Virus record (IMG/VR): IMGVR_UViG_3300035670_000457
Span: 1-42,803 of that record
Reading direction: 5' to 3' (one strand)
DNA length: 42,803 nucleotides
From: a virus
Made by a program: the position numbers and the translations under genes. The notes under the pieces were generated by a model, which saw only the letters and a program-made list of their open reading frames with translations, was not told the origin of the DNA and did not search any database. Of the stretch, positions 2,350-42,128 are shown one piece after another (within the stretch, counting starts at the first letter, position 1; every line of letters begins with the position of its first letter).

Positions 2350-3648
2350 TTAATAGTTAGTCATTTTTAAACGGATTCCAACTTCCTTTTTCCTTGAGTC
2401 TTTTTCCATCTTTCTCAGGCTATTGATGGGGACTCTTTCGGATAATCCCCAACAGGCGAGAGCGAGACTCATTACCCTGTCATCGTGGAGTCCCTCGGGG
2501 GTCTGCATCCGGACCTTCTTTCCGATTAGTTCATATTGCATCCCGCGGAGTTCATCCTTAAGTTCAGGGTCGTCGGGTATCTTAATCTTGTCCTGCTCAA
2601 ACATGATTTGCAGGTTATTTAAAAGCTGAGTCCGACTGGTTTCGTTAAAATGGAAAGGTTCGACTGAAATCTGCCTTTTTAAATCATCGATTATCGGGTC
2701 CCCTATCCCCGTCGAGTCTATAAAAGTCCGGGCCCGGTTCCAATACTTCACTTCCTTCACAATCATCTCTTTCTGCTCATTCCAATCAATCTTATTGAAA
2801 TGAATCTGCTTTACCAAATGGAAGGTGTGGAGATCTATCACACTTATCACGGTGAAATCTTGATACTTAGCCAGGTCGATCCCAATCTGATACCTCTTTC
2901 CCCTGACCAGCTTATCCTCCTCCCCCTTAGGCACATAAGTGTTCTCATCGATCCTTTTAAATACGGCACTGGCTCCATCGATGAACTTCACATAGTATTC
3001 CTGTTCAAAAAGGTCAATCGGCATTTCTCTGCGCTCCTGCTCCAAAACTTCCCTAGGGATCGCTTCAGTATCCTCCACCGTCAGAATCTGATACCACCAC
3101 TGCTCCCCCCCCTCCTTGGCAGTCTGGAGGATCTTCCATCCTTCGTTCATGCCCCGGGGGGTATAAACAAAAATGGCAAAGCCTCCATTTTCGGCTAAAA
3201 TCGGTCGGATGAAGTCCCAGACCTGAGCCTTCATGAGTGAATATTCCGAGAATACCACCCCCACCGGATTAGTCCCCACCAAGTTATCTATGGTATCTGC
3301 TCCCACTACCTGGAAGATACTTCCATTCTTCAGCTCTATTTTCATCTCGGTAATGTTGGGCTCCCCCTTGATCAGTTCAGGGGGGAAGTGGTCAAGGAAG
3401 CGAAATCCGTCGCGGTCGATGCCGTTCCACAGAATTTTTCGACCCTGGTTGAACGTTGGGAAGAAATAGTAGTATGTCCCCACCCGGTCTATCATCTTAC
3501 TTATCACTCCATTTAGTACTGTTTTATCCTTGCCGCTACGTCTATGCCATATACATACAAAGCGCCTAGCCTTGCTGCTCTGTAGGGCTGTTAGCAATGG
3601 TACTTGATATGTTCGTGGCTCGAAGCGATATGGTATCTTTATTGGCAT
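2350..3648 (-). CDS. terL: Terminase large subunit (TerL)
   Basis: The ATP-driven DNA packaging motor and headful nuclease, 432 residues, a normal family length. ATPase half: Walker A-like WHRRSGKDKT at residues 34-43, Walker B VVFSEY at 131-136 with the catalytic Glu, and the coupling motif TPRG at 163-166. Nuclease half (RNase H fold): acidic residues in IGIDLAKYQD (Asp258), FIDSTGIGDP (Asp311) and HDDRVMSLALA (Asp389/390). All key residues are present. The start codon lies inside the end of the small terminase gene (83-base overlap in another frame), and no Shine-Dalgarno precedes it, so translation may be coupled to the upstream gene. Confidence 0.95.
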   Translation of the reverse strand: MPIKIPYRFEPRTYQVPLLTALQSSKARRFVCIWHRRSGKDKTVLNGVISKMIDRVGTYYYFFPTFNQGRKILWNGIDRDGFRFLDHFPPELIKGEPNITEMKIELKNGSIFQVVGADTIDNLVGTNPVGVVFSEYSLMKAQVWDFIRPILAENGGFAIFVYTPRGMNEGWKILQTAKEGGEQWWYQILTVEDTEAIPREVLEQERREMPIDLFEQEYYVKFIDGASAVFKRIDENTYVPKGEEDKLVRGKRYQIGIDLAKYQDFTVISVIDLHTFHLVKQIHFNKIDWNEQKEMIVKEVKYWNRARTFIDSTGIGDPIIDDLKRQISVEPFHFNETSRTQLLNNLQIMFEQDKIKIPDDPELKDELRGMQYELIGKKVRMQTPEGLHDDRVMSLALACWGLSERVPINSLRKMEKDSRKKEVGIRLKMTNY

Positions 3649-4368: not shown

Positions 4369-4406
4369 AAATTTCAGGGTTTTAGGGGCTGTGGATAACT
4401 CAAGGC

Positions 4407-4434
4407 TTGACATATTTTATGGATCTGCTACAAT
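4407..4434 (+). promoter_or_regulatory. Rightward sigma-70 promoter for the early genes
   Basis: Perfect TTGACA (4407-4412), a 16-base spacer and TACAAT (4429-4434). It points into the structured RNA and the plus-strand early genes. It stands back to back with the leftward promoter, forming the main transcription divide of the window. Confidence 0.8.
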
Positions 4435-4464
4435 AGTAATTGATAATATAATAATTGTCAAATA

Positions 4465-4585
4465 ACAAGATGAATCGCATAAAACTAAAACATCTCATAT
4501 TGGCTGGTGGTGCAAGGCATTGCCAAGCACGGAAAGGTTTTATGCGAACCTATCTTGTCGCCAGCCAATAGAAGATGTTTTTTTT
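4465..4585 (+). ncRNA. Structured RNA with two crossing long helices and a U-tract
   Basis: It begins about 30 bases after the rightward promoter. Helix A pairs ACAAGAT (4465-4471) with ATCTTGT (4552-4558) and CGCATAAAAC (4476-4485) with GTTTTATGCG (4537-4546). Helix B pairs AAAACATCT (4487-4495) with AGATGTTTT (4573-4581) and TATTGGCTGG (4498-4507) with CCAGCCAATA (4561-4570). The order A, B, A', B' is that of a pseudoknot. A small hairpin (GTGC 4510-4513 with GCAC 4527-4530, inner GGC/GCC) fills the middle, and a T-rich tract follows helix B. The RNA may be a discrete small RNA, an attenuator whose two helices alternate, or a two-helix knot. No protein frame is convincing here. I do not recognise an Rfam class. 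Confidence 0.65.
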
Positions 4586-4832
4586 ATTTTGCAAAACACG
4601 CTCCGGAAAAATTAAAGTTTTGATTTTTTGAGAGCTTCTTTTGCTCATAATGGCCAATTACCCCATTCATTATGAGATTATCCTTACACTAGAGCCTAAA
4701 TATTGATTGATTGTTGCCTACTCTGGAAGGTTATGCTCCAGAGTGCAAACACCATTCAGGCTCAAGGGAAGAATAACAAGAGGGGGTAATAGTTAACTAG
4801 TATACTGTATCAATAAAAAAGGCTTATATAAT
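4586..4832 (+). other. Non-coding leader with further hairpins
   Basis: No gene is seen between the structured RNA and the next CDS. Stems visible: CTCATAATG (4644-4652) with CATTATGAG (4668-4676); CTCTGGA (4721-4727) with TCCAGAG (4737-4743, 9-base loop), enclosed by GAGCCT (4692-4697) with AGGCTC (4758-4763). A TATAAT-like box lies just before the next start codon, without a good -35. This may be a second structured RNA or a leader acting on the gene at 4833. Confidence 0.45.
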
Positions 4833-7592: not shown

Positions 7593-8498
7593 ATGAAGAA
7601 GGAAATCATCGTAGTTGATGAAAAGCGCAAAGTCTATCGGGTGACCACTCCCGATGAGCGCTTTTATTTGACCGAATCAATCAACAAAGAGCTGGGGCTG
7701 CCCGAATTCACCTACAAGCCCTCAGTCACCTGGATCACCAGCTTTTACCCCAAGGGAGTGGCTTTTTACAAGTGGCTGGCTGACAAGGGGTGGAATGAAG
7801 CTGAAGCCCTCAAGGTGAGCGCCGGAGACAAGGGTAGCAAGGTGCATAAGGGAATTGAACTGTTGGTGGGTGGAGCTGAGGTCAAGATGGAGGATAAATT
7901 GACCAATAAGAGCACTGGAGAGGCAGAAGAGCTCAGTGTGGAGGAATATGAGTGCTTAATGAGTTTTGTGGACTGGTACAAGGCCACAGAACCTCAAATT
8001 TTGACTTCTGAGCGCATTGTGGAGTCAAATGAGTATAATTACGCAGGTACAGTGGATTGTATCGCTAAAATCAAGGGTGAAACGTGGATTATTGACTTTA
8101 AAACAGGGCAAAACGTGTGGCCGGAGTATGAATTGCAGTTATCAGCCTATAAACAAGCTCTGATTGAGATGAAAGAGGATGTGAAAGATGCCAAACTGGC
8201 TATTTTACAGCTCGGGTATAAAAGGAATAAAAGACTCTATAAATTTACTGAAGTAGAAGATAAGTTCAAACTGTTCCTGGGGGCTAAAGATATCTGGCAG
8301 AACGAGTGTGGAAAAGTGAGTCCGAAACAAGTGGAGTACCCTTTAAGTTTAAGCCTCAAAAAAAAGGAGGAAGAAAATAATAAACCTAAGCCTAAAAAAA
8401 ATGAGCTCATTAAAAAAGACGCTGTACGAAAAGATACAGCAAGCCAGCTGGCTCTCGACGGAAGAGATCGAACAGATAGCCAAGGACAACGGGTATAA
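7593..8498 (+). CDS. PD-(D/E)XK nuclease, RecB/Cas4-like exonuclease
   Basis: A 301-residue protein with the RecB-family nuclease signature in order: GSKVHKG (His85), the conserved Asp in YAGTVDC (Asp155), DFKTG (Asp168, Lys170) and QLSAYKQ (Gln182, Tyr186). This fold degrades DNA ends with Mg and in phages usually feeds single-strand annealing recombination or destroys host DNA. The SSB-like gene at 8664 fits a recombination/replication role. The last roughly 35 residues read through the start of the next gene in another frame, and two A8 runs (8358-8365, 8394-8401) stand just before, so the natural C-terminus is uncertain. Confidence 0.85.
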   Translation: MKKEIIVVDEKRKVYRVTTPDERFYLTESINKELGLPEFTYKPSVTWITSFYPKGVAFYKWLADKGWNEAEALKVSAGDKGSKVHKGIELLVGGAEVKMEDKLTNKSTGEAEELSVEEYECLMSFVDWYKATEPQILTSERIVESNEYNYAGTVDCIAKIKGETWIIDFKTGQNVWPEYELQLSAYKQALIEMKEDVKDAKLAILQLGYKRNKRLYKFTEVEDKFKLFLGAKDIWQNECGKVSPKQVEYPLSLSLKKKEEENNKPKPKKNELIKKDAVRKDTASQLALDGRDRTDSQGQRV

Positions 8499-9122: not shown

Positions 9123-9359
9123 ATGAAGAGGATAAGTGGGGATTACCTCAAAAAATTCCAGCCAGTTAAGGAAGATTCGACCTGGTACCGCGAGCTAGGG
9201 AAGGAAATGACCCAGTATTTCGGGAAAAACTGCTTTTGGATTCCGTTCCGGCACGAGCGCTGGAAGATTATTTCAAAGTTCAAACAAATCCAGGAGATAG
9301 AGGACTCGAAGAAAAATAAGAGTCTCGCCTATTTCCTGGGAATGTTGGATGACCGGTAG
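9123..9359 (+). CDS. Hypothetical protein after the SSB-like gene
   Basis: A 78-residue protein rich in aromatic and basic residues (YFGKNCFWIPFRHERWKIISKFKQI), ending in a helical SLAYFLGMLDDR. It has no known motif. It starts 3 bases after the SSB-like gene, so the two are co-translated and may act together at replication forks. Nothing in the sequence gives a specific reaction. Confidence 0.6.
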   Translation: MKRISGDYLKKFQPVKEDSTWYRELGKEMTQYFGKNCFWIPFRHERWKIISKFKQIQEIEDSKKNKSLAYFLGMLDDR

Positions 9360-9366
9360 TCCCGGC

Positions 9367-9451
9367 CCGGGGAAGGTTCTTTTAAAAGATGGGAGTTTTG
9401 TTTATTTTTCTCACCATCTCTTCCACAGGAGGACACACTCACCTTCCCCGG
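9367..9451 (+). other. Long two-part intergenic hairpin
   Basis: Outer stem: CCGGGGAAGGT (9367-9377) with ACCTTCCCCGG (9441-9451), a perfect 11 bp. Inner stem: GATGGGAG (9388-9395) with CTCACCATC (9410-9418), 8 bp with one bulged A. An AGGAGGA stretch lies in the open loop at 9427-9433. It occupies most of the 140-base gap. A frame open across it exists but its translation is low-complexity and not protein-like. It is probably a structured intergenic RNA element. Confidence 0.6.
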
Positions 9452-9498
9452 ACTGGGGCTACTGTGTTCAACTTAATTCGTTTAATTTTAAAAACAAG

Positions 9499-9669
9499 AT
9501 GAAGACAATGAAGATCGTATCCTATTTCATTTGTGGAATTGGGATATTCGGGAGCTTTTTAAACTTTTCAGACGGAGATGTGTCCGGGGGAGTACTCGGA
9601 CTAGCCCTGTTTGGATTCTTCCTGGCCCTCACCGCTAACATAAAACTCGATGTGGACGCAAAAAACTAA
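9499..9669 (+). CDS. Small membrane protein, two predicted spans
   Basis: A 56-residue protein with two hydrophobic segments, IVSYFICGIGIFGSFLNF and GVLGLALFGFFLALTANI, separated by a short polar turn (SDGDVSG), i.e. a helical hairpin in the membrane. Starting at 9499 avoids an upstream in-frame extension (from 9349) that reads through the intergenic hairpin. It overlaps the next gene by 20 bases. Its role is unknown; early phage membrane peptides can mediate exclusion or inhibit host functions. Confidence 0.55.
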   Translation: MKTMKIVSYFICGIGIFGSFLNFSDGDVSGGVLGLALFGFFLALTANIKLDVDAKN

Positions 9670-9891: not shown

Positions 9892-10773
9892 ATGGAAAAA
9901 AGAATTTGTAAAACCTGTGGGAAAGAATATGAAAAGAACTATAAATACTCTGAGACTCAATGGGCTTTTTCTAAATTTTGCAGTTATGCTTGCAATGCCA
10001 AAAATAAAAAGATAAGAGCTGATAATAAGATACAACCCAAAAAGATTTGTGAATTTTGTGGAAAGGAGTATATAAGAAACAGGACATTATCCCCCCATCA
10101 GTGGGATTCCCGGAGGTTTTGTAGTAACTATTGTGGTATAAATTCCAGACGTAAACATAAGGATGCAAGGGCAAAGGATTTGTTTCATAGGCGTAAAAGG
10201 GGAATATTGCCTCAGGGTAGCCCGGCGCTAAAAGCTAAGATAGCCAAATTAACTGCGCTAGCGATGCAAAGACCAGATGTACAAGAAAAAATTAGAGCAC
10301 CCCGAGAGTCGTTATCGCTAGAAAGGAGAATGCAGATTTCAAATACCAATAAGGGAAAGATGCCAAAAAATCTCGGATATACCAATTGTAATCATTATCC
10401 AAATGTTAAGAGGGGGTACTATGACATAAATGGAACCACAATGTACTTTAGAAGCGGTTGGGAGGCAAATTATGCCCTGTATCTTGATTTTTTAATAGAT
10501 CATAATGAGATAGTTAAGTGGGAATACGAGCCAGATACGTTTATGTTTGAGCAAATAAAACTAGGAACCAGAAGTTATACCCCGGATTTTAAGGTTTTTA
10601 ATAAGGACGGAACAATAGAATATCACGAAGTGAAAGGACACATGAACAGTAAGAGCAAAACCAAACTAAAACGAATGAAAAAATACTATCCAAAAGTAGT
10701 GCTAAAGCTGATTGACAGCTCGGAATACAATCTATTGAAAAAGCAAATTGGTAAGTTGTGTAATTTTTATTAA
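9892..10773 (+). CDS. Zinc-finger PD-(D/E)XK homing-type endonuclease
   Basis: A 293-residue protein. Two tandem zinc modules with the same pattern, CKTCGKEY...QW...FCSYAC (Cys 6, 9, 30, 34) and CEFCGKEY...QW...FCSNYC (Cys 53, 56, 77, 81), precede a basic linker containing a NUMOD-like ISNTNKGKMPKN block (149-160). The C-terminal nuclease shows WEANYALYL (Glu191), YTPDF (Asp232) and HEVKG (Glu246, Lys248), a complete PD-(D/E)XK site. This architecture is typical of free-standing homing endonucleases that copy themselves between phage genomes. Its position directly after a truncated nuclease of the same fold class supports mobility. Confidence 0.75.
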   Translation: MEKRICKTCGKEYEKNYKYSETQWAFSKFCSYACNAKNKKIRADNKIQPKKICEFCGKEYIRNRTLSPHQWDSRRFCSNYCGINSRRKHKDARAKDLFHRRKRGILPQGSPALKAKIAKLTALAMQRPDVQEKIRAPRESLSLERRMQISNTNKGKMPKNLGYTNCNHYPNVKRGYYDINGTTMYFRSGWEANYALYLDFLIDHNEIVKWEYEPDTFMFEQIKLGTRSYTPDFKVFNKDGTIEYHEVKGHMNSKSKTKLKRMKKYYPKVVLKLIDSSEYNLLKKQIGKLCNFY

Positions 10774-10974: not shown

Positions 10975-11589
10975 ATGAACACGATAGAATTGTTCTCTGG
11001 AACGAAATCATTTTCAAAGGTAGCTAAAAAATTAGGACACGATACTTACACAGTAGATAACGACCCAGGATTATTTCCAGATGAAGTGGCAGATATTATG
11101 AGTTGGGAGAATCCGCAAGGTATATGCGATGTTTTGTGGGCTTCACCACCTTGTCAGGGATTTTCAGTGGCGGCTATTGGAAAGAATTGGAACAAAGATA
11201 GAACGCCAAAGACGGAATCCGCAAAATTGGCGATGGAACTTGTTAAAAGGACAATGGATATTATAGACCACCTAGATCCTGACTACTGGTTCATAGAAAA
11301 TCCAAGAGGAATGTTGCGAAAGATGGATTGGTTTCAGGAATGGGTTAGGGGGAAAGGAGGAACACAACACACGGTCAGTTATTGCCAATACGGAGATACT
11401 AGGATGAAGCCGACAGATATATGGACTAATTGCAGGGAGTGGAAACCAAGACTGATGTGTAAGAATGGAAGCCCGTGCCACGAATCTGCACCCAGAGGAT
11501 CAAAAACTGGAACACAGGGGATAAATGGAGCAAGGGATAGGGGAAAAATACCAGAAGAATTATTTTACGAAATTTTTAAATCAATTTAA
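10975..11589 (+). CDS. DNA (cytosine-5) methyltransferase, minimal phage type
   Basis: A 204-residue enzyme expected to transfer methyl from S-adenosylmethionine to C5 of cytosine in DNA. Motif I: ELFSGTKSF (residues 5-13). Motif IV: SPPCQGFS with the catalytic Cys60. Motif VI: FIENPRG (Glu108). A motif VIII-like block, QYGDTRMKPTDIW, is near 138-150. It is much shorter than typical C5 methyltransferases (over 300 residues) and lacks an obvious target-recognition domain between motifs VIII and IX, as in other compact phage enzymes. It may protect phage DNA from host restriction. No cognate restriction enzyme is visible. Confidence 0.85.
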   Translation: MNTIELFSGTKSFSKVAKKLGHDTYTVDNDPGLFPDEVADIMSWENPQGICDVLWASPPCQGFSVAAIGKNWNKDRTPKTESAKLAMELVKRTMDIIDHLDPDYWFIENPRGMLRKMDWFQEWVRGKGGTQHTVSYCQYGDTRMKPTDIWTNCREWKPRLMCKNGSPCHESAPRGSKTGTQGINGARDRGKIPEELFYEIFKSI

Positions 11590-11614: not shown

Positions 11615-11794
11615 ATGAAAAAGAAACCTAAAAAAGTTAAAGTTAAAAAGGAAAAAAAACAAGTGGTGGAAATCCACATCTACATCCACCAGCCACCGTA
11701 TGATCAATTCACGCCATCACCAAATCATCCGACAGTTTCACCAAGTACAACCGGAATACAACCTTGGAATCCGCCTTATCAAGTAAATTGTTAG
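11615..11794 (+). CDS. Small basic/proline-rich protein, hypothetical
   Basis: A 59-residue protein with a lysine cluster at the N-terminus (MKKKPKKVKVKKEKKQVVE) and a Pro/Ser/Thr/His-rich remainder ending PPYQVNC. It is probably unfolded outside binding partners. I chose 11615; the same frame opens earlier at 11525 but would overlap the methyltransferase by 65 bases. It lies directly upstream of the large structured RNA. No family is recognised. Confidence 0.4.
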   Translation: MKKKPKKVKVKKEKKQVVEIHIYIHQPPYDQFTPSPNHPTVSPSTTGIQPWNPPYQVNC

Positions 11795-11802
11795 TTCATT
11801 CC

Positions 11803-12161
11803 CAACTACACTCGGGCTAAGCGGGTATAAGGTCTGACGGATAAGAGTAGCTAGGCCAGCTAATAACGCCGTCTGAAAATGCACCCACTGCCTAGAGGCC
11901 GCCGAATAAACTTGCCAAGCCGCTTGACAATGCTTGGAAGCTGGCGAACGGCACGCCGCCTTGTGAAACTGATTATCGGGTTCACAACCGCAAAAAGGCA
12001 CATAACCTTGAGCGGTGCAAATACGAGTGTAGTTGAGAGTTAGTTTTTTAAAAGCTGGAGTGGCGTGGTAGCCTGACTGCCAAGTAATCGTAATTGTCAC
12101 GGTGGTAGATATACCTTAATATCCGTTGGATATGTTGCAAACCAATTGCCTCCAGCTTTTA
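11803..12161 (+). ncRNA. Large two-domain structured RNA candidate
   Basis: A 390-base gap with stops in all plus frames, full of helices. Domain 1 is closed by CAACTACACTCG (11803-11814) with CGAGTGTAGTTG (12024-12035), a perfect 12 bp across 230 nt. Inside: GGGT/ACCC (11823, 11883) enclosing GACGG/CCGTC (11836, 11869) and TAGCT/AGCTA (11848, 11858); CCAAGC/GCTTGG (11915, 11932); GGCG/CGCC (11943, 11954); TTGTGAA/TTCACAA (11961, 11981); CCGC/GCGG with AAGG/CCTT (11988-12015). A T6 run follows at 12044. Domain 2 is closed by TAAAAGCTGGAG (12049-12060) with CTCCAGCTTTTA (12150-12161), also a perfect 12 bp, and contains GGTA/TACC, ATATCC/GGATAT and GCAA/TTGC hairpins. I do not recognise a known class. 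A 120-residue minus-strand frame overlaps it but looks spurious. Confidence 0.7.
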
Positions 12162-12184: not shown

Positions 12185-12520
12185 ATGGATACAAACTTCC
12201 CACTTTGTAATCATTCCCAAAAAGATGGATACAAACCCACCTGGGAAAAAGAATTTGATGAGATTTATTATGAGCCTTGGGGTTCACATCCAGCAGACAA
12301 ATTAGCCTTAATGCTTTCTTTTATCCGTTCTGAAAAGAAGAAAAGTGAGAAACAAGAACGAACCAAAGTTATCAATGAGATAAGAGAGAAAGTTAATTTT
12401 ATTATAAGTGAATCTGCCGAAAGGGAAAATAAATATCGTGAAGAAAAAAATGACAAAGGCTTTATTTATGAACAAGCAAGACAGGGTGGATTAAGATATC
12501 TATTAAATAATATTAAATAA
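12185..12520 (+). CDS. Hypothetical protein downstream of the structured RNA
   Basis: A 111-residue protein. The N-terminal 40 residues include CNHSQKDGYKP and WEKEFDEIYYEPWG; the rest is charged helix (EKKKSEKQERTKVINEIREKVNFII), probably coiled coil. It begins 23 bases after the end of RNA domain 2, so the RNA may be its leader. No Shine-Dalgarno; the start follows an A-rich stretch. It abuts the next gene with no gap. No family is recognised. Confidence 0.55.
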   Translation: MDTNFPLCNHSQKDGYKPTWEKEFDEIYYEPWGSHPADKLALMLSFIRSEKKKSEKQERTKVINEIREKVNFIISESAERENKYREEKNDKGFIYEQARQGGLRYLLNNIK

Positions 12521-12859
12521 ATGAAAACCCTCACTCAATTAAGTAAAGAAGTCCACGATGCGATGAATCAGCCAGCCGAACTGGCGAAGATCTATTTGTA
12601 TTGCGCCGCTGAATTCGGTTATTATTCAGATATTCTGAAAGATATCAAGATCAAAAAAGCCGAAAAATGGCTTCAAATAAAGGAAAGTGGGGATGAAAAG
12701 GACATTTCAGACAAGAAAGCAGATATGTTATTCGCTCAAACTGACGACGGAAAGAAGGAGATCGAACTGACTTATAACCTCAAGGCCCTGGAAAAGTTTA
12801 TGGGAGCAATAAAACAAAGCGCTTATTTGAATAAAGAAGAGGCGAAAAATCTGTATTAA
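12521..12859 (+). CDS. Hypothetical helical protein, last early gene
   Basis: A 112-residue all-helical protein. The pattern IKIKKAEKWLQIKES...ISDKKADMLFAQT...LTYNLKALEKFMGAIKQ resembles small uncharacterised phage proteins that lie near recombination or replication genes. It is the terminal gene of the rightward operon and its stop codon forms the first bases of the bidirectional terminator. Function unknown. Confidence 0.6.
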   Translation: MKTLTQLSKEVHDAMNQPAELAKIYLYCAAEFGYYSDILKDIKIKKAEKWLQIKESGDEKDISDKKADMLFAQTDDGKKEIELTYNLKALEKFMGAIKQSAYLNKEEAKNLY

Positions 12860-13995: not shown

Positions 13996-14181
13996 TTAAG
14001 GTATCAACTGCCTATCGCAATACCACATACAAAGCAGATAGACTAAGTTGATAAGGCAGCCGACGGCCAGGATCATCCAAGCTGTCCGGCTCTTGTCCAG
14101 GTTCTTGATCTTCTTTGTTAGTTTGCCGATATGCCTGGTGTACTTCTTATCGGCATCCTTAAAAACTCTTTTTGTAACCAT
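13996..14181 (-). CDS. Small coiled-coil membrane protein
   Basis: A 61-residue protein: a basic amphipathic N-terminus (RVFKDADKKYTRHIGKLTKK) followed by one membrane span (AWMILAVGCLINLVYLLCMW) and a short tail. The soluble helix plus C-terminal span resembles lysis-timing or holin-accessory peptides. It sits in the lysis region, without a Shine-Dalgarno. Function is inferred only from topology and place. Confidence 0.5.
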   Translation of the reverse strand: MVTKRVFKDADKKYTRHIGKLTKKIKNLDKSRTAWMILAVGCLINLVYLLCMWYCDRQLIP

Positions 14182-14207
14182 ATTATAGCTTAAAAATTAA
14201 ACTCACA

Positions 14208-14268
14208 CTAGAGACTACTAATCTAGTGATCTCTAGGATGGGGAGAAGCACAGATTCGTGTTTCTCCC
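14208..14268 (-). terminator. Tandem hairpins at the left end of the acquired module
   Basis: GGGAGAAGCAC (14241-14251) pairs with GTGTTTCTCCC (14258-14268), 11 bp with one G-T pair. CTAGAGA (14208-14214) pairs with TCTCTAG (14230-14236). On the minus strand they follow the stop of the zinc-ribbon gene at 14278 and lead into an AT-rich stretch (GAGTTTAATTTTTAA). They may be a terminator or an mRNA-end element; U content after the stem is moderate. Confidence 0.5.
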
Positions 14269-14277
14269 GGTTTAATT

Positions 14278-14496
14278 TTACTGGCACTGGCAGTTGCCTC
14301 CGCATTTTTCGTCAATCTTCTGGCGAACAGTCACCGGAGTCCGGCAAGAGTCGCAGAGGAAGAGCGAGAGCAGGCGGACGCATTTCTCGTCCCGGTCGTA
14401 TTCAAGCATTCTCGAAACGAAGTGGACAGAGTGCTTGCCACACAGTTTGCAGGTGAGGTGGGCCTTTTCTTCTTGGGTAAAGAGCATTTCAGCCAT
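14278..14496 (-). CDS. Zinc-ribbon protein (72 aa)
   Basis: A 72-residue protein with CKLC (16-19), CDSC (48-51) and a C-terminal CGGNCQC. The spacing of two CxxC knuckles about 28 residues apart fits a zinc ribbon or treble-clef-like fold. The segment before the first knuckle is acidic. GGGAGGG precedes the ATG at proper spacing. The start overlaps the upstream zinc-ribbon gene by 8 bases. Function is unknown; it is the last of five cysteine-knuckle microproteins in this module. Confidence 0.65.
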   Translation of the reverse strand: MAEMLFTQEEKAHLTCKLCGKHSVHFVSRMLEYDRDEKCVRLLSLFLCDSCRTPVTVRQKIDEKCGGNCQCQ

Positions 14497-25308: not shown

Positions 25309-26544
25309 TTAAGATGGTGAGGGTGAAACACTGGGACTTACAGATTCACTAACCGAAGGACTAACCGAAAGACTAACCGAGGAACTGACAGACGGACTGG
25401 CAGAGGTACTGATCGAAGTTGAAACAGATGAAACTGCCGTTTGGACACCCACCACATCCCAACCGCCAGGAGTTCCCGCTACTACGCATATTTTTAATCT
25501 TCCGTCAACGACACATAAATCTCCGACTTCGGCTGCTCCGGTGGGGTCATCTGATCGGTTAGGAAGGTGGATATCGGCAACATCTTGTTCAGCCTGGATG
25601 TAAATCGGAACGGCTCTCAGGGAACTATTGATATAAGCTAAAACTCCAGTGCCATAAGATCTCGTATCATCCCCGTACTTATAACCAGAATCTCCATAGG
25701 TCGCCGCAGTAGTACCAACCAGGAGTGTAATTCCCTGGGAGTTAATTTCTGTTCTCTGACCAGAAGAGGCTGTCCGAATCAAACCTCCGGTAATCACTGG
25801 AGCGTCTAATGTGCCTCCATAAATCGCTGTTGAGTGGATTTCTGAAGCGTTGATCGTTCCTTTAAAATAAGCACTTCCATTAGTTAAAATCCGAACATTA
25901 GCATCTCCTAAATCTTGATTATCCTCACAGGCGAAAATCCCTGAATTATTTATTAAAACTCCTCCACTATCGGCACTTCCATCACCTACTGTCGAAGCCG
26001 TCCTTAAAACTGCATTGGTATTTATTTCAAAAACTGATTCTGAGATGGTTCCAAAAGAAAATTCGGGGGCGCTTCCGTCTGAGTGTAAGTTAAAAACTTC
26101 TCCCAAGACTGAATCGTAACCCCGGATGCCATCTGAATCAATAATGACTCCATTGGAACCCGCGGCGACTGTGGCTGAAGTTCTGATGTTCGGAGTTCCG
26201 CTTCCGTTGTAATAAAGCCCGTCATCGTCAATCACCCAACCTCCGATGAGACCTGAACTGGCGTAAACTGAACCACGAATCGTGGCTGTATTGAACTCAG
26301 CGTTTCCTACCCCATCTATCTTCCAGCCATTGACTCCGGTTTGGAAATTATCACTCTTAAGATATCCGTGGACTACATTTAGATTTCCCGTAAGGCCTCC
26401 CGAAGTGATTGAAGCTGGCCCGATTCCTTGCTGAAAAACATTAGCTATGTGAGGAGTTGTCTTGAAGGGTGAGAAAAGCTCTTCAACGGGATTGAACAGT
26501 GGCTCCTTGGTTAAGGTTCGATTGAATCCGTCATTCTCTAACAT
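25309..26544 (-). CDS. Tail protein ending in a Ser-alternating repeat
   Basis: A 411-residue protein. The N-terminal half holds GVNGWKIDGVGNAEFNTATI, SGLIGGWVIDDDGLYY and YGGTLDAPVITGG, beta-rich repeats typical of tail-spike or fibre shafts. Residues 371-411 are a short (S-X)n stretch beginning SSVSTSISTSAS and ending SVSPSPS right at the stop. This links it to the two repeat proteins upstream. It overlaps the next gene upstream by 14 bases. Receptor binding or shaft function is likely. Confidence 0.7.
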   Translation of the reverse strand: MLENDGFNRTLTKEPLFNPVEELFSPFKTTPHIANVFQQGIGPASITSGGLTGNLNVVHGYLKSDNFQTGVNGWKIDGVGNAEFNTATIRGSVYASSGLIGGWVIDDDGLYYNGSGTPNIRTSATVAAGSNGVIIDSDGIRGYDSVLGEVFNLHSDGSAPEFSFGTISESVFEINTNAVLRTASTVGDGSADSGGVLINNSGIFACEDNQDLGDANVRILTNGSAYFKGTINASEIHSTAIYGGTLDAPVITGGLIRTASSGQRTEINSQGITLLVGTTAATYGDSGYKYGDDTRSYGTGVLAYINSSLRAVPIYIQAEQDVADIHLPNRSDDPTGAAEVGDLCVVDGRLKICVVAGTPGGWDVVGVQTAVSSVSTSISTSASPSVSSSVSLSVSPSVSESVSPSVSPSPS

Positions 26545-27988
26545 TTTCTACGATGTTAATGCTCTCACTGGGGAACTCAATTCCCTTAATCTTGACTTGT
26601 CCCGAATCGGTCGTCCCAGTGATCTTGAAATTAAAGACATTCCCCTTTACTTTGAAATCTCCTATTTCTTCTATATCGTTCGTAATGTTCCTGATGCTTC
26701 TCCAGTCTAAATCCCGGTTTGAATTGGAGCGGTACATCAGTTGGCCCAAATTGACATTCTCCGTATAGGAAAATACTGAATCAATTTCCTTGAGCCTGGC
26801 CCTAGAACCCAGATCTATTTCTTGGGGTTCCCAGGTATAACTGATGGGGATAGAGGGGTAATCAGTATAACCTGTCCCGATCTGCAGGGCTTGGCCGTCG
26901 TCATCCCCACCGATTAGAACCTTCAAACTTGAACTGATGTACCAGGTCAAGAACTTGAAGTTGTTATAGTAAGAGTAAATGTCAAAAGTCTGAGAGTCGA
27001 TGTTATATTTAAACATTACATTGTTATAAGTATTCCCGTCTAAGGTGATATCTCCGACATAGATATAGACGTAATCTTCGTCGCAATAAGTATAAACCTC
27101 AGTGTAGTCAGTTATTTCATCCCATAAGTCCTGGATAGGTTTTGAAATCTTTTTAGGATAACCACCATTGGTGACCCAAATCCCCTGCTGGTTGGCAAAG
27201 AATACCATTCCTCGACCCCGGCAAACTGCTTCTTGAGTAGGGGTACCAACGTTAATCAGGTCTTCAGGGAAAGTCGAAGCTCCATCCCATCTTTTCATCG
27301 TCCGTTCCTTGAAAATCAAAAGATAGCCCGGGACTTTTTCAAGAGCAGTGATTCCTCCACCCCCGTCTTCTTGTTCTATTGCAATGTCTCCCGCTCCGCT
27401 TTCTGTCCCGTCGGCTGTCCAGACAATCGTCCTGGCATCAGGATCAGCAATTGAAGAATAGTAAAGGATGTCAGGAGCCGAAGCTACGCCAGCAGTATAA
27501 ACCCGGTCTTTCCATTCAATCACGACGCTTCCAAGAGGCATATTGTCTTCATCAAAAGCTCCTCCAGTAGTAACCCAGGCACTGCCGTTATAACTCTTAG
27601 CCGCGTCTGTCCCATTTACCCTGACCATTGAATCTAAAAAGGTGCAAAACCGAGTCTTTAAACTAGGGTTGTCATCTTCTAAGGACTTAGTTCCGGTCAG
27701 CATATCATAAATATCGTTGTTTGAATTGTCTGAAAACACTCCGAACAGCTTATGGTTGGTTCCCACCGAATCGTTAAAGTAAGCTAAACCATAACAGCGA
27801 GCCCCATCAATGGCTTGAGACCCGATAATAGTGGTACCCAAACGGGAAACCGCTGAGCCCAATTCCTTATCAGTGTCCAGGTTAATCGCTTCCCTGACTG
27901 AGTTTTGAGGGGCAATTGAGTTCTGAACTGTCCTGATGGTACCCCTAGAACAGTCCCGAAAAATGATTGGTTGGTTGATCTTAGCCAT
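26531..27988 (-). CDS. P22 gp10-like DNA stabilisation / tail tube hub protein
   Basis: A 485-residue beta-rich protein with repeating Gly/Asn/Trp blades: FGVFSDNSNNDIYD, VNGTDAAKSYNGSAWVTTGG, WKDRVYTAG, GYLLIFKERTMKRWDG, FFANQQGIWVTNGG and YPKKISKPIQDLWD. These resemble the propeller-like packaged-DNA stabilisation proteins of podoviruses that sit below the portal and close the channel. The adaptor gene is 2 bases upstream, the usual order. No Shine-Dalgarno. Confidence 0.75.
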   Translation of the reverse strand: MAKINQPIIFRDCSRGTIRTVQNSIAPQNSVREAINLDTDKELGSAVSRLGTTIIGSQAIDGARCYGLAYFNDSVGTNHKLFGVFSDNSNNDIYDMLTGTKSLEDDNPSLKTRFCTFLDSMVRVNGTDAAKSYNGSAWVTTGGAFDEDNMPLGSVVIEWKDRVYTAGVASAPDILYYSSIADPDARTIVWTADGTESGAGDIAIEQEDGGGGITALEKVPGYLLIFKERTMKRWDGASTFPEDLINVGTPTQEAVCRGRGMVFFANQQGIWVTNGGYPKKISKPIQDLWDEITDYTEVYTYCDEDYVYIYVGDITLDGNTYNNVMFKYNIDSQTFDIYSYYNNFKFLTWYISSSLKVLIGGDDDGQALQIGTGYTDYPSIPISYTWEPQEIDLGSRARLKEIDSVFSYTENVNLGQLMYRSNSNRDLDWRSIRNITNDIEEIGDFKVKGNVFNFKITGTTDSGQVKIKGIEFPSESINIVENVRE

Positions 27989-37519: not shown

Positions 37520-38149
37520 TTATAAATAATTAGATTTAACTTCTTCTATGGTTCCCCAGTAGGGGATCTCTCCCACTGAACCCTGTTTGAACCCGGTCTT
37601 GAACCCGATGCCCTGCCTGGTCTTAAAATAGAGTACCGGGTTTTCTCCGCTCCAGGAATATTCGTCTTTTTCCTTGAAAATGAATTTGAACTCTTCTGGT
37701 TCCCAACTGTCAGGATTTTCTAGGATATTCTCGATGCTCTTGATCCAATGTTCCCGGCCGCACATCTGCGCCCCTTCTACCCAGGCTTTTTTCCAAAATC
37801 GGTTATACCCGTCGAAATAAACATAGAGATTGGTGTAGCGGTAAACCCTGTCATTTCTGGGTGGGGTGAATGTAAAGTACTCAGGGGGATAGAGGATGTC
37901 AGACTCGGCTGAAATACAGAACTCGGTTTTGGCTTCTTTAAGCCCAATTAGGAGTTGCTTGAACGAGTTGGAATAACAGACGGGTTTGGGTCCGATGCAG
38001 ATATTGGTTCCCAGGTCTATCGGTTTTTGGGTAACCGAGATGATGGGAATATCTCCGGCTTGCTTTTTTAAATTATCAATAATCTTCTGTTCAAATTCGG
38101 GCTTCTCTTGGTTGGCGGAGTAGTAAATTATTAATCTATTTCCAGCCAT
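37520..38149 (-). CDS. Glycosyltransferase-like protein, FTPPR family member 2
   Basis: A 209-residue protein paralogous to its neighbour at 36769: IPIISVTQKPIDLGTNICIG, EFCISAESDILYPPEYFTF and TPPRNDRVYRYTN match block for block. The putative metal site is ESD. It is shorter, with an internal region (WKKAWVEGAQMCGREHW) aligning less well. Tandem duplication with divergence suggests two different sugar additions. It overlaps the next upstream gene by 14 bases. Confidence 0.6.
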   Translation of the reverse strand: MAGNRLIIYYSANQEKPEFEQKIIDNLKKQAGDIPIISVTQKPIDLGTNICIGPKPVCYSNSFKQLLIGLKEAKTEFCISAESDILYPPEYFTFTPPRNDRVYRYTNLYVYFDGYNRFWKKAWVEGAQMCGREHWIKSIENILENPDSWEPEEFKFIFKEKDEYSWSGENPVLYFKTRQGIGFKTGFKQGSVGEIPYWGTIEEVKSNYL

Positions 38150-38876
38150 ATTTATTAAAAAATCCTATTAACCTGTCTGATAAGACATTGACCCCTAGAA
38201 CATTCTCTCCCGTCATCACCCGATAGAACAATCCCTTTCGGTTATTGGGATGGAAATGGGGGACTAAAACTGGCTTATCTGTCTTGTTATATATCATTTC
38301 AAAATTTCTGACAGCGTTGACACTTCCCGGGAAGTTGTAAGTAATATTTAAAACTTCATACTGGTCGTTTATGTTTCCGATATTTTGTTTGGTAAGCCTT
38401 CCCAATGCCCACTCTTCTCCGTCCTGATGGGCGTCGCTGTCATTCTTAATCAGTTGGAAAATGTCTCTGGCTTCTTTTTTGAAAAAGAAACTGCCGGTAT
38501 TCCACCGCTCGCAATAACCGTAATCAGTAAGCGCCAGGTCCTTAGTGAGTTCAAAATTGAACGGATAATTCTGGAAGGCTTCCATATCGTGGAACCAATA
38601 GGTATCGTCCCCAATTAGTTTGTTTTCAAACATCCAAAGGATCGTATTGATCTTACTGGCTTGGGGAAAATAGGGACAGAATAATTCATCGGGGGCAACT
38701 AATGAAATTACTTCATCGTAATCATAGGGAAAGTTAGTAATCAGCAAAATATCTTTCCTTTTCCAACCCAGGCTCAAACTGTTATCTATTTGGAGTTTAA
38801 CCAACTTCTTGTTCTCTTCGCTCCATTCGTGGCTGGGATTGATATAAATGAGTAAATTCTTCATTTCTTTCCCCAA
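38136..38876 (-). CDS. Glycosyltransferase-like protein, NFPY family member 1
   Basis: A 246-residue protein. Blocks shared with the genes at 39998 and 40839: an N-terminal LLIYINPSHEWSEENKKLVK, ILLITNFPYDYDEVI, then YWFHDMEAFQNYPF with HDME as a metal-type DxE site, NTGSFFFKKEARDIFQLI and a HFHP near the end. This looks like a GT-A fold family found in phage and cell-envelope gene clusters. Reaction and sugar unknown. The genes overlap by 14 to 16 bases on both sides. Confidence 0.6.
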   Translation of the reverse strand: MGKEMKNLLIYINPSHEWSEENKKLVKLQIDNSLSLGWKRKDILLITNFPYDYDEVISLVAPDELFCPYFPQASKINTILWMFENKLIGDDTYWFHDMEAFQNYPFNFELTKDLALTDYGYCERWNTGSFFFKKEARDIFQLIKNDSDAHQDGEEWALGRLTKQNIGNINDQYEVLNITYNFPGSVNAVRNFEMIYNKTDKPVLVPHFHPNNRKGLFYRVMTGENVLGVNVLSDRLIGFFNKYGWK

Positions 38877-39436: not shown

Positions 39437-40041
39437 TATTCCGGCTTAATTATGCACCATCCGTGAGAGGTGAGCCGATGGACCGGAAGACCTAACTTCT
39501 CGGCAAACTCATCAACTGCCCTGATTACCTCAAACTTCATCCCCGTGACAGGAGCGTGGGAGTGGGAATAATCGTCTCCGGTGAAAAACTTTCCCGGTTT
39601 AACTTTGGGCCACCAAGCCTCCATATCTTTCTTACAACCTTCATAACTGTGGTCAGCATCGACATAAATCAGGTCAAAATAATTGTCAGGAAAGTTCTGA
39701 GCCGCCTCGTCAGTGTACATCCGGTAAAGTCTGATTGAAGGATAACGGTGCATCAGGCTTTTAAAATACTCACACTGAGCATCTAATTGTTCCTGGGTAA
39801 AACTGGAATCGTTGTGTCCTGGGTTTCCGTCATTAATCCAGGCGTCCACTCCGACTGCCACATCTGGGTTGCCATCTAAAAATCTTTTAAAATTTTGGGA
39901 GGCAAAGACTCCCACCTCGCAGACATTCTTAATTTCGTACTTCTCCATAAATGGCTTCCAAATCCGGCGGTGCCGGTGTAGCACCAAGTCGTTTAAGTCA
40001 TTGATCACTTGAGGAGACATCTCCCGTGGTAATAATTCCAT
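39436..40041 (-). CDS. SAM-dependent methyltransferase (Methyltransf_24-like) 2
   Basis: A 201-residue class I methyltransferase: VCEVGVFASQNFKRFLDG (motif I), AVGVDAWIND, DLIYVDADHSYEGCKKDMEA (motif IV with the acidic and His residues of the family), then KPGKFFTGDDYS. Related to but clearly distinct from its neighbour. It may add a different methyl group to the glycan. It overlaps the gene at 39998 by 44 bases. Confidence 0.75.
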   Translation of the reverse strand: MELLPREMSPQVINDLNDLVLHRHRRIWKPFMEKYEIKNVCEVGVFASQNFKRFLDGNPDVAVGVDAWINDGNPGHNDSSFTQEQLDAQCEYFKSLMHRYPSIRLYRMYTDEAAQNFPDNYFDLIYVDADHSYEGCKKDMEAWWPKVKPGKFFTGDDYSHSHAPVTGMKFEVIRAVDEFAEKLGLPVHRLTSHGWCIIKPE

Positions 40042-40870
40042 TTTGTTTAAATAAATTGATTAACCTTTCATTTATTAGCGGTCTCCTCAACTTGTTTTCC
40101 CCCAGGAAAAATGGGAGCTTCCATTCAATCACGTCTTTTCCTTTCCTGCTAGCTTGTTCGGGAAACGGATTAAAGTGAGCCGTCTTAGGATTTCCTCCGC
40201 ACATCTTCCAAAGAGAGGTCATGTTATAATCGGCAAAATTATAGGTGATCGGCATAATGTGGACTCTCTTTGAAAGGTGGCTCATATCCTCAAAGGTATA
40301 AGGAGCGAACGAGTTTTCCGCCCCAATACTAGACCTGAAGGCCCAATTCCGGTTGTTAGTCATCATGATCATGAGGGCCCGTTCTTCCTCGCAGCGCTTG
40401 CTCCATTGGCGGCAGTCAACCATAATATCCCTTATCTTAGCATAAATATCGGCTGCTGATTTTCTGAAAAATATCGAACCGCAGTTCAGTTTGACTCTTC
40501 TTCCGTAATTGCAAAGGGCAAAATCACTCTCCCCCATCTCCCTAACTATCTCTTCTTCATCAAACGGTAACTGTTGGAAATGGTCGATGTCGTGGACCCA
40601 GTACAGTTCCTCGTCATTAAACACCTGGTTTTTCTCAAACATCTTAGAGAGAGTATAACACTTGGTGGAGGCGGGATCGTCAGAGAAAAAGTAATCACTC
40701 GGAACCTCGGTTGCCTTTACCCCCATGAATTCGTAGGGAAAATTAGTGATGAAAATAATGTCTTTCGGGTCCCAGCCCAATAGCAAAATATTCTCTATCT
40801 GGACCTTGACCAGCTTGTCAGCGTTCTCGCTTATTCCCTTAGGATTTAGGTATAGAAAAACGTTTTTCAT
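39998..40870 (-). CDS. Glycosyltransferase-like protein, NFPY family member 2
   Basis: A 290-residue protein: VFLYLNPKGISENADKLVKV, IIFITNFPYEFMGVKATEVP, YWVHDIDHFQQLPF (HDID metal-type site), NCGSIFFRKSAADIYAKI and KTAHFNPFPEQ, aligning with the genes at 38136 and 40839. It is longer in the middle (CEEERALMIMMTNNRNWAFR). It ends with a Gly/Asp/Ser tail. Likely another sugar transferase of the cassette. Overlaps both neighbours. Confidence 0.6.
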   Translation of the reverse strand: MKNVFLYLNPKGISENADKLVKVQIENILLLGWDPKDIIFITNFPYEFMGVKATEVPSDYFFSDDPASTKCYTLSKMFEKNQVFNDEELYWVHDIDHFQQLPFDEEEIVREMGESDFALCNYGRRVKLNCGSIFFRKSAADIYAKIRDIMVDCRQWSKRCEEERALMIMMTNNRNWAFRSSIGAENSFAPYTFEDMSHLSKRVHIMPITYNFADYNMTSLWKMCGGNPKTAHFNPFPEQASRKGKDVIEWKLPFFLGENKLRRPLINERLINLFKQNGIITTGDVSSSDQ

Positions 40871-42128
40871 CGACTTGATAGGTGTTAAAATCGTGAAAGC
40901 GCAGTATCTTAAAAATATCTTCTTTTAATTCATCCATCGTTCGGCAGTTAGGTTTGGGAGTGTCAGTTATCTCACAGAGTTTCAAAACGATAACCTTAAG
41001 TCCTTTCTTGGCATACTCCTCAATCACCTGTTGGGCTTCTTTTTTGCTCTTTCCGTAATCTTCTTGGTTAGAAATTGTCCCGAAATGGATCATCTTGCAA
41101 CCGTATTCTAAACATAGTTCAGCCACATTCTTAGTTCCAGTAACGTTCGTTTGGAAATAATCTCCCCGGCTTTCTACTTTTAACTTGGCAGCGGTATGGA
41201 TGACAAACTCCGCTTTCTCAAAATAGGGTCGGAGTGCTTCCTTGTCCGTTACATCTTCCGTTATCCCTTCCACCCTCAAGGCGCAGCGCTTCAAGAAGTC
41301 AGTTAGGTTTGAACCGATATAACCTTTGCAACCAGTAATCAAGACACCCTTGTCATTGAACCGCTCCTCTATCAATTTTCTTAACTTGTCGTTTAAAAGG
41401 AACCACATCTTCCGGTACCACCTATTTTGATTAGGAGGAAAGTGCGCCATCTTAACCGGTTTTTCGGCTAGGTTGACGTTGATCTTGGTGCACCTGATTC
41501 CAATATTATACCCAGCATCCATAATCTCAACCCGGTCTTCAATTCCGTCCACATTTTCATCCAGCATCAGGGACATTGCGTCCTCTTCATACAGTCCGTT
41601 GCTGTCCATTCTATCTAATAGTTTTTTAAATATATCTAGTACCCCTGGTTTAAAAAAGACGTTTCCGAAGTTGATCCTTCTGGGATATCCCCACTTGGTT
41701 TCTTTCATCGGTTTAGCCAATTTCCCAGTGCTCTTCCCCCAGTGCTGGAAAATCCAGGGAGGATAAACTCCATAACAAGTCAGTCCCATATCCTTTTTTA
41801 AAACGGCTGGATCTATCGGAGCTACCTGGAAAGAATCAAAATCGTGATAAAAGGCTGGTTCAGTCAGTATCTTATTTTCAATGATATAAATAAAAATGTT
41901 TACCTTGCTGTTGATTATGGCTCTCGGGTTGGCTGGCCACTGGCTATTGAATAAGTCGGGGAGTTCAACCGCTTTTATTCCTTTGTACTCGTAAGGAAAG
42001 TTAGTCACTAACAAAATGTCTTCCGGTTTCCAGTAATCCAGGGAGTTTTCAATCTGGATCTCAAGCATCTTCCGATGGTTGTGGTCCATCCTGTGTTCGG
42101 GGCTCATGAATGTCAGCAGATTTTTCAT
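40839..42128 (-). CDS. Fusion: NFPY glycosyltransferase-like domain plus SDR/epimerase domain
   Basis: A 429-residue fusion. Residues 1-258 match the NFPY family: LLVTNFPYEYKGIKAVELPD, FYHDFDSFQVAPID (HDFD, 95-98), NFGNVFFKPGVLDIF and KMAHFPPNQNRW. Residues 259-429 are an NAD-binding short-chain dehydrogenase/epimerase: GVLITGCKGYIGSNL (GxxGxxG, Gly266/269/272), NVTGTKNVAELC, then the catalytic YGKSK (Tyr358, Lys362). The SDR part is short (about 170 versus roughly 300), missing much of the substrate half. It may make the activated sugar its own transferase uses, or be regulatory. The junction falls exactly where the shorter paralogs end. Confidence 0.7.
   Translation of the reverse strand: MKNLLTFMSPEHRMDHNHRKMLEIQIENSLDYWKPEDILLVTNFPYEYKGIKAVELPDLFNSQWPANPRAIINSKVNIFIYIIENKILTEPAFYHDFDSFQVAPIDPAVLKKDMGLTCYGVYPPWIFQHWGKSTGKLAKPMKETKWGYPRRINFGNVFFKPGVLDIFKKLLDRMDSNGLYEEDAMSLMLDENVDGIEDRVEIMDAGYNIGIRCTKINVNLAEKPVKMAHFPPNQNRWYRKMWFLLNDKLRKLIEERFNDKGVLITGCKGYIGSNLTDFLKRCALRVEGITEDVTDKEALRPYFEKAEFVIHTAAKLKVESRGDYFQTNVTGTKNVAELCLEYGCKMIHFGTISNQEDYGKSKKEAQQVIEEYAKKGLKVIVLKLCEITDTPKPNCRTMDELKEDIFKILRFHDFNTYQVDEKRFSIPKS

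Follow-up and report, generated by a model that had tools for sequence, protein, structure and literature searches.

Two adjacent 12-bp stems bound a candidate structured RNA in an intergenic gap of a phage genome

Virus record IMGVR_UViG_3300035670_000457, the 42,803 bases of which were analysed as a whole and are referred to here as the window, contains a gap of approximately 390 bases without genes in which two long inverted repeats lie side by side. The question raised by this locus is whether the gap encodes a structured RNA and, if so, on which strand and of what kind.

Gene content of the gap and its surroundings

The window comprises a plus-strand block of replication and small genes extending to 12859, followed by a late-gene block on the minus strand. 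Family searches identified the terminase large subunit at 2350-3648 (minus strand) and, on the plus strand, a PD-(D/E)XK exonuclease at 7593-8498, a nuclease/Holliday-junction-resolvase-like protein at 9892-10773 and a cytosine DNA methyltransferase at 10975-11589. The two-stem segment lies near the 3' end of the plus-strand block (Table 1). Its upstream neighbour, for which a family search of the encoded protein yielded zero matches, ends in a stop codon 8 nt 5' of stem 1, and the start codon of the downstream neighbour at 12185 lies 23 nt 3' of stem 2. Neither relatives nor families were found for the protein encoded at 12185, and no relatives were found using the last protein of the operon as query. 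The block is followed by a perfect 15-bp inverted repeat (12858-12872/12886-12900) that on inspection resembles a terminator. The G+C content of domain 1 is approximately 0.52, compared with approximately 0.3-0.45 in the flanking genes.

Table 1. Coordinates and supporting evidence for the features of the two-stem segment and its neighbours.
Feature	Position	Strand	Evidence
Upstream neighbour, possible 59-aa Lys-/Pro-rich protein	11615-11794	+	ORF
Open frame of 120 codons, judged not to be a gene	11738-12100	-	Codon score
Stem 1, 5' arm CAACTACACTCG	11803-11814	+	Perfect 12-bp pairing with 12024-12035; repeat I9
Domain 1, first arm, elongated hairpin (GGC/GCC, GGGU/ACCC, GACGG/CCGUC, UAGCU/AGCUA)	11815-11892	+	Pair probabilities 0.87-1.00
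Domain 1, middle, ill-defined with competing pairings	11896-11961	+	Pair probabilities 0.38-0.58
Domain 1, hairpin UGUGA...UCACA	11962-11986	+	Pair probability 0.93
Domain 1, hairpin ACCGC...GCGGU	11987-12016	+	Pair probability 0.97-0.98
Stem 1, 3' arm CGAGTGTAGTTG	12024-12035	+	Pairs with 11803-11814
T6 run, linker between domains	12044-12049	+	Sequence
Stem 2, 5' arm TAAAAGCTGGAG	12049-12060	+	Perfect 12-bp pairing with 12150-12161; repeat I6
Domain 2, interior, five short predicted hairpins	12061-12149	+	No better than shuffles
Stem 2, 3' arm CTCCAGCTTTTA	12150-12161	+	Pairs with 12049-12060
Downstream neighbour, 111-aa orphan protein	12185-12520	+	ORF
112-aa orphan phage protein, final gene of the plus-strand operon	12521-12859	+	ORF

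The original prediction held that the gap contains no plus-strand coding frame. This was correct for the gap in its full length, but a frame of 54 codons from ATG (11879-12043) is present, the longest on that strand, and is not gene-like: 11% of shuffles reach this length, its codon score of -0.446 is below that of the minus-strand frame, and no relatives were found in the phage collection. When scored against the codon use of the phage itself, a measure that separates genes only weakly, the longer frame on the minus strand obtained -0.234 bits per codon; the median for spurious frames was -0.216, and scored genes were higher. Used as a query against viral and genome collections it retrieved no relatives, nor were any DNA relatives caught by this means, and a family search gave no match below an E-value of 0.14. 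It was rejected as a protein gene on its non-gene-like codon use and the lack of homologues and families. Protein evidence for this frame had been named beforehand as what would speak against an RNA; none was found, and the RNA reading stands. The best interpretation of the gap is that it does not encode protein.

Closing stems, interior folds and strand

Both stems were recovered at exactly the coordinates first proposed, with pair probabilities of 0.99 for stem 1 and 0.96 for stem 2, and neither contains a G-U pair. Stem 1 encloses 209 nt and is lengthened by the pairing of 11798-11801 with 12037-12040 beyond a C.A mismatch; stem 2 encloses 89 nt. This pairing supports the description of the segment as a two-domain element, each domain (approximately 240 and 115 nt) being closed by its own stem.

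The 371-nt region was dinucleotide-shuffled 20,000 times and searched for perfect 12-bp stems with a loop of 50-300 nt; one such stem occurred in 0.25% of the shuffles and two in none. Across the whole window, perfect inverted repeats of at least 12 bp with 50-300 nt between the arms number three, against a mean of 0.81 in shuffled windows; two of the three are stems 1 and 2, and the third lies within a gene (26731/26932). That background, and the ordinary interiors described below, would be compatible with two unrelated inverted repeats coinciding in a non-coding gap. Two adjacent 12-bp stems are nevertheless very unlikely to arise by chance, even allowing for approximately 100 similar stretches in the window, and coincidence is given very little credence as an explanation.

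Since the perfect stems lack G-U pairs, their palindromy is complete on the DNA, and this, with interiors near random, would also suit repeats that act at the DNA level, either as the termini of a small mobile element or as a DNA structure for replication or recombination. The two repeats are, however, unlike in sequence, no abutting target-site duplication was seen by inspection, and a second copy is absent from the window; a role of this kind is considered quite improbable.

When folded as a whole, the region gave z-scores against shuffled sequences of -3.8 on the plus strand and -5.7 on the minus strand. The individual domains, stems included, scored -4.3 and -3.9 on the plus strand, better than 400 of 400 shuffles, and approximately -4 whichever strand was folded. 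Without the stem, the plus-strand interior of domain 1 scored -1.42, with 40 of 400 shuffles as good, and that of domain 2 scored -0.07. In a second test the stems were kept and only the interiors shuffled; on the plus strand, 12% of such shuffles for domain 1 and 23% for domain 2 folded at least as well, and energy, pairing entropy and the share of confident pairs were all in the ordinary range. The whole-region score of -3.8 is therefore the doing of the stems. The original prediction had counted at least eight nested hairpins and regarded them as too dense for chance, a claim that did not hold, the plus-strand interiors being within the range of the shuffles. At present the evidence supports the stems, and the stems only.

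On the minus strand, the interior of domain 1 was better than approximately 99% of stem-kept shuffles by entropy (p of approximately 0.007, against 0.13 on the plus strand) and approximately 97% by energy. Such values would fit a minus-strand RNA, with domain 1 and perhaps both domains read in the direction opposite to the operon, possibly to give an antisense regulator, as would the eight G-U-only pairs on that strand compared with three on the plus strand, and a promoter-like site at 12648-12621 directed toward the segment. Against this, the neighbouring genes are both on the plus strand, most of the eight minus-only wobbles sit at helix ends, and wobbles with Watson-Crick pairs on both sides number two per strand in domain 1 and lean towards the plus strand in domain 2. 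Moreover, no minus-strand terminator was found past domain 1 and the folding signal is modest after several tests, so that transcription in this direction is held to be distinctly unlikely. Domain 1 is A-rich on the plus strand, which fits a plus-strand transcript, as does the position between plus-strand genes, and on this context the plus strand is tentatively preferred over the minus as the sense strand.

Domain 1 had also been described as ending near a run of six T residues. The run exists on the plus strand, but it starts 8 nt past the perfect stem and does not make up a hairpin-plus-T terminator. No plus-strand terminator was called there by the terminator scan, and the scan for promoters and terminators found none belonging to the segment at its borders. 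Domain 1 as a terminated RNA was rejected, given the distance of the T run from the stem and the absence of a called terminator.

Relatives and comparison with known RNAs

No Rfam family matched the region at the gathering threshold or at E-values up to 10, in agreement with the initial remark that it resembles no known RNA class, and none of the Rfam covariance models for self-splicing introns or self-cleaving ribozymes was matched. A BLASTN query with the region returned nothing from phages, plasmids or E. coli genomes. Relatives of the region were absent from 29 virus records with the terminase or another late gene in common (28 retrieved with the terminase as query and one with the late-gene protein 26531-27988). 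A search of all fetched loci with nhmmer found none, and single-sequence covariance models run over 0.7 Mb of related records recovered the window itself only. Scanning with the best-defined loop motif gave zero viral matches and eight genomic matches without extended similarity, which were taken to be due to chance. The exonuclease query yielded one distant record, from which the RNA is absent, and the methyltransferase query an 18-residue match only. Matches in L056 and L044 were dismissed as short chance words in coding-looking DNA. The closest relative has a terminase 62% identical to that of the window, and its contig stops approximately 1.5 kb beyond that gene and does not reach the part of the genome in which the segment lies. 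The missing homologues are therefore partly a limit of sampling and say little against an RNA.

Among known systems, GOLLD and ROOL are large RNAs of phages and prophages whose function is still open; like the present segment, they are long, gene-free and phage-borne, with a multi-branched predicted fold (PMC12286853). The segment matches neither of their Rfam models at E-values up to 10 and measures approximately 360 nt, whereas many GOLLD members exceed 800. GOLLD and ROOL are often found near tRNA islands, in contrast to the 42.8-kb window, which has no tRNA genes, and the segment differs further in having no homologues found and hence no covariation. It is a possible new orphan of the large phage RNA kind, outside both families. 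In being intergenic, non-coding and phage-borne it also resembles the small regulatory RNAs of phages, but it is longer than is typical of these and has no called border promoter or terminator of its own.

Possible roles and other structured gaps

The explanation tentatively favoured is a structured intergenic segment of the plus-strand operon, with stems bounding two domains that would probably be released and stable. The gap would be transcribed within the operon, and the two long stems would fold back to back as the boundaries of the RNA domains, which lie between one small gene upstream and two downstream. The stems would most likely form termini that withstand nucleases or direct their cleavage, and one or both domains may be freed from the polycistronic transcript as a stable noncoding RNA acting in trans. 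In this explanation we infer transcription, strand, processing, stability and any function in trans. In its favour are the observed side-by-side stems beyond chance, the whole-domain z-scores, the raised G+C content, the lack of a gene-like frame and plus-strand neighbours without a separate promoter or terminator at the borders. Counting against it are the ordinary plus-strand interiors, the better-defined minus-strand domain 1 and the lack of a homologue, an Rfam match and signals of its own for initiation or termination.

The segment is thus an orphan RNA candidate, as yet unproven, which if real would join the few large phage RNAs that are known. That it represents a new class, namely a two-domain phage noncoding RNA that is excised from an operon transcript and has each domain sealed by its own long stem, within a genome that has several stem-closed intergenic elements, is unlikely.

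Early transcripts of T7-type phages carry RNase III sites between their genes. The present stems would be comparable in being intergenic, double-stranded and part of a polycistronic phage transcript, and unlike in that T7-type sites have a short loop, whereas the predicted stems enclose 209 and 89 nt. The closest rival to a released RNA is a cis-acting element of the operon mRNA, in which the stems would be nuclease-processing or protective sites, or domain 2 a leader controlling translation from 12185, with no function as a free RNA. The location inside the plus-strand operon agrees with this, domain 1 beginning just past a stop codon and domain 2 ending just before a start codon (8 and 23 nt, as above), and three further gaps (4464-4582, 9354-9465 and 14180-14285) likewise show small hairpins enclosed by a long stem, with no sequence similarity among the three. 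However, a simple processing site would not be expected to occupy as much as 390 nt, features for binding a ligand or ribosome were not recognised, and the gap at 14180-14285 sits among genes of the opposite strand. A role in cis alone is considered possible, if somewhat doubtful.

All three of these gaps fold more strongly than the two-stem segment. If the favoured RNA is real, its occurrence together with them would suggest repeated use of stem-closed intergenic RNA elements by this lineage.

The gap at 4464-4582 has a z-score of -6.8 on the plus strand, with a range of -6.8 to -7.6 for the fold of 4400-4590. A promoter-like TTGACA-16-TACAAT (4407-4434) lies upstream, and the 21-nt closing stem (4487-4507/4561-4581, 90% paired) runs into a T run. 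An 11-bp helix (4475-4485/4537-4547) would not easily coexist with this stem, and the two are therefore possibly a terminator/antiterminator pair. Judged from these sequence features, 4400-4590 on the plus strand is likely to be a small RNA gene. The gap at 9354-9465 (z of -7.3) lies between two plus-strand genes. Its 22-nt closing stem is 86% paired and encloses two small hairpins, and a longer frame overlapping the gap, 9349-9669, stays open across it. At 14180-14285, a gap among the late genes, two strong nested hairpins are predicted within an AT-rich closing stem (z of -7.4 on each strand).

Elsewhere in the late block, a run of minus-strand genes at 38136-42712 matches methyltransferases and a nucleotide-sugar epimerase. 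A single stretch of contig L032 (3154-3885) is matched by three genes of the window, at 38136-38876, 39998-40870 and 40839-42128, which suggests a duplication of modification genes.
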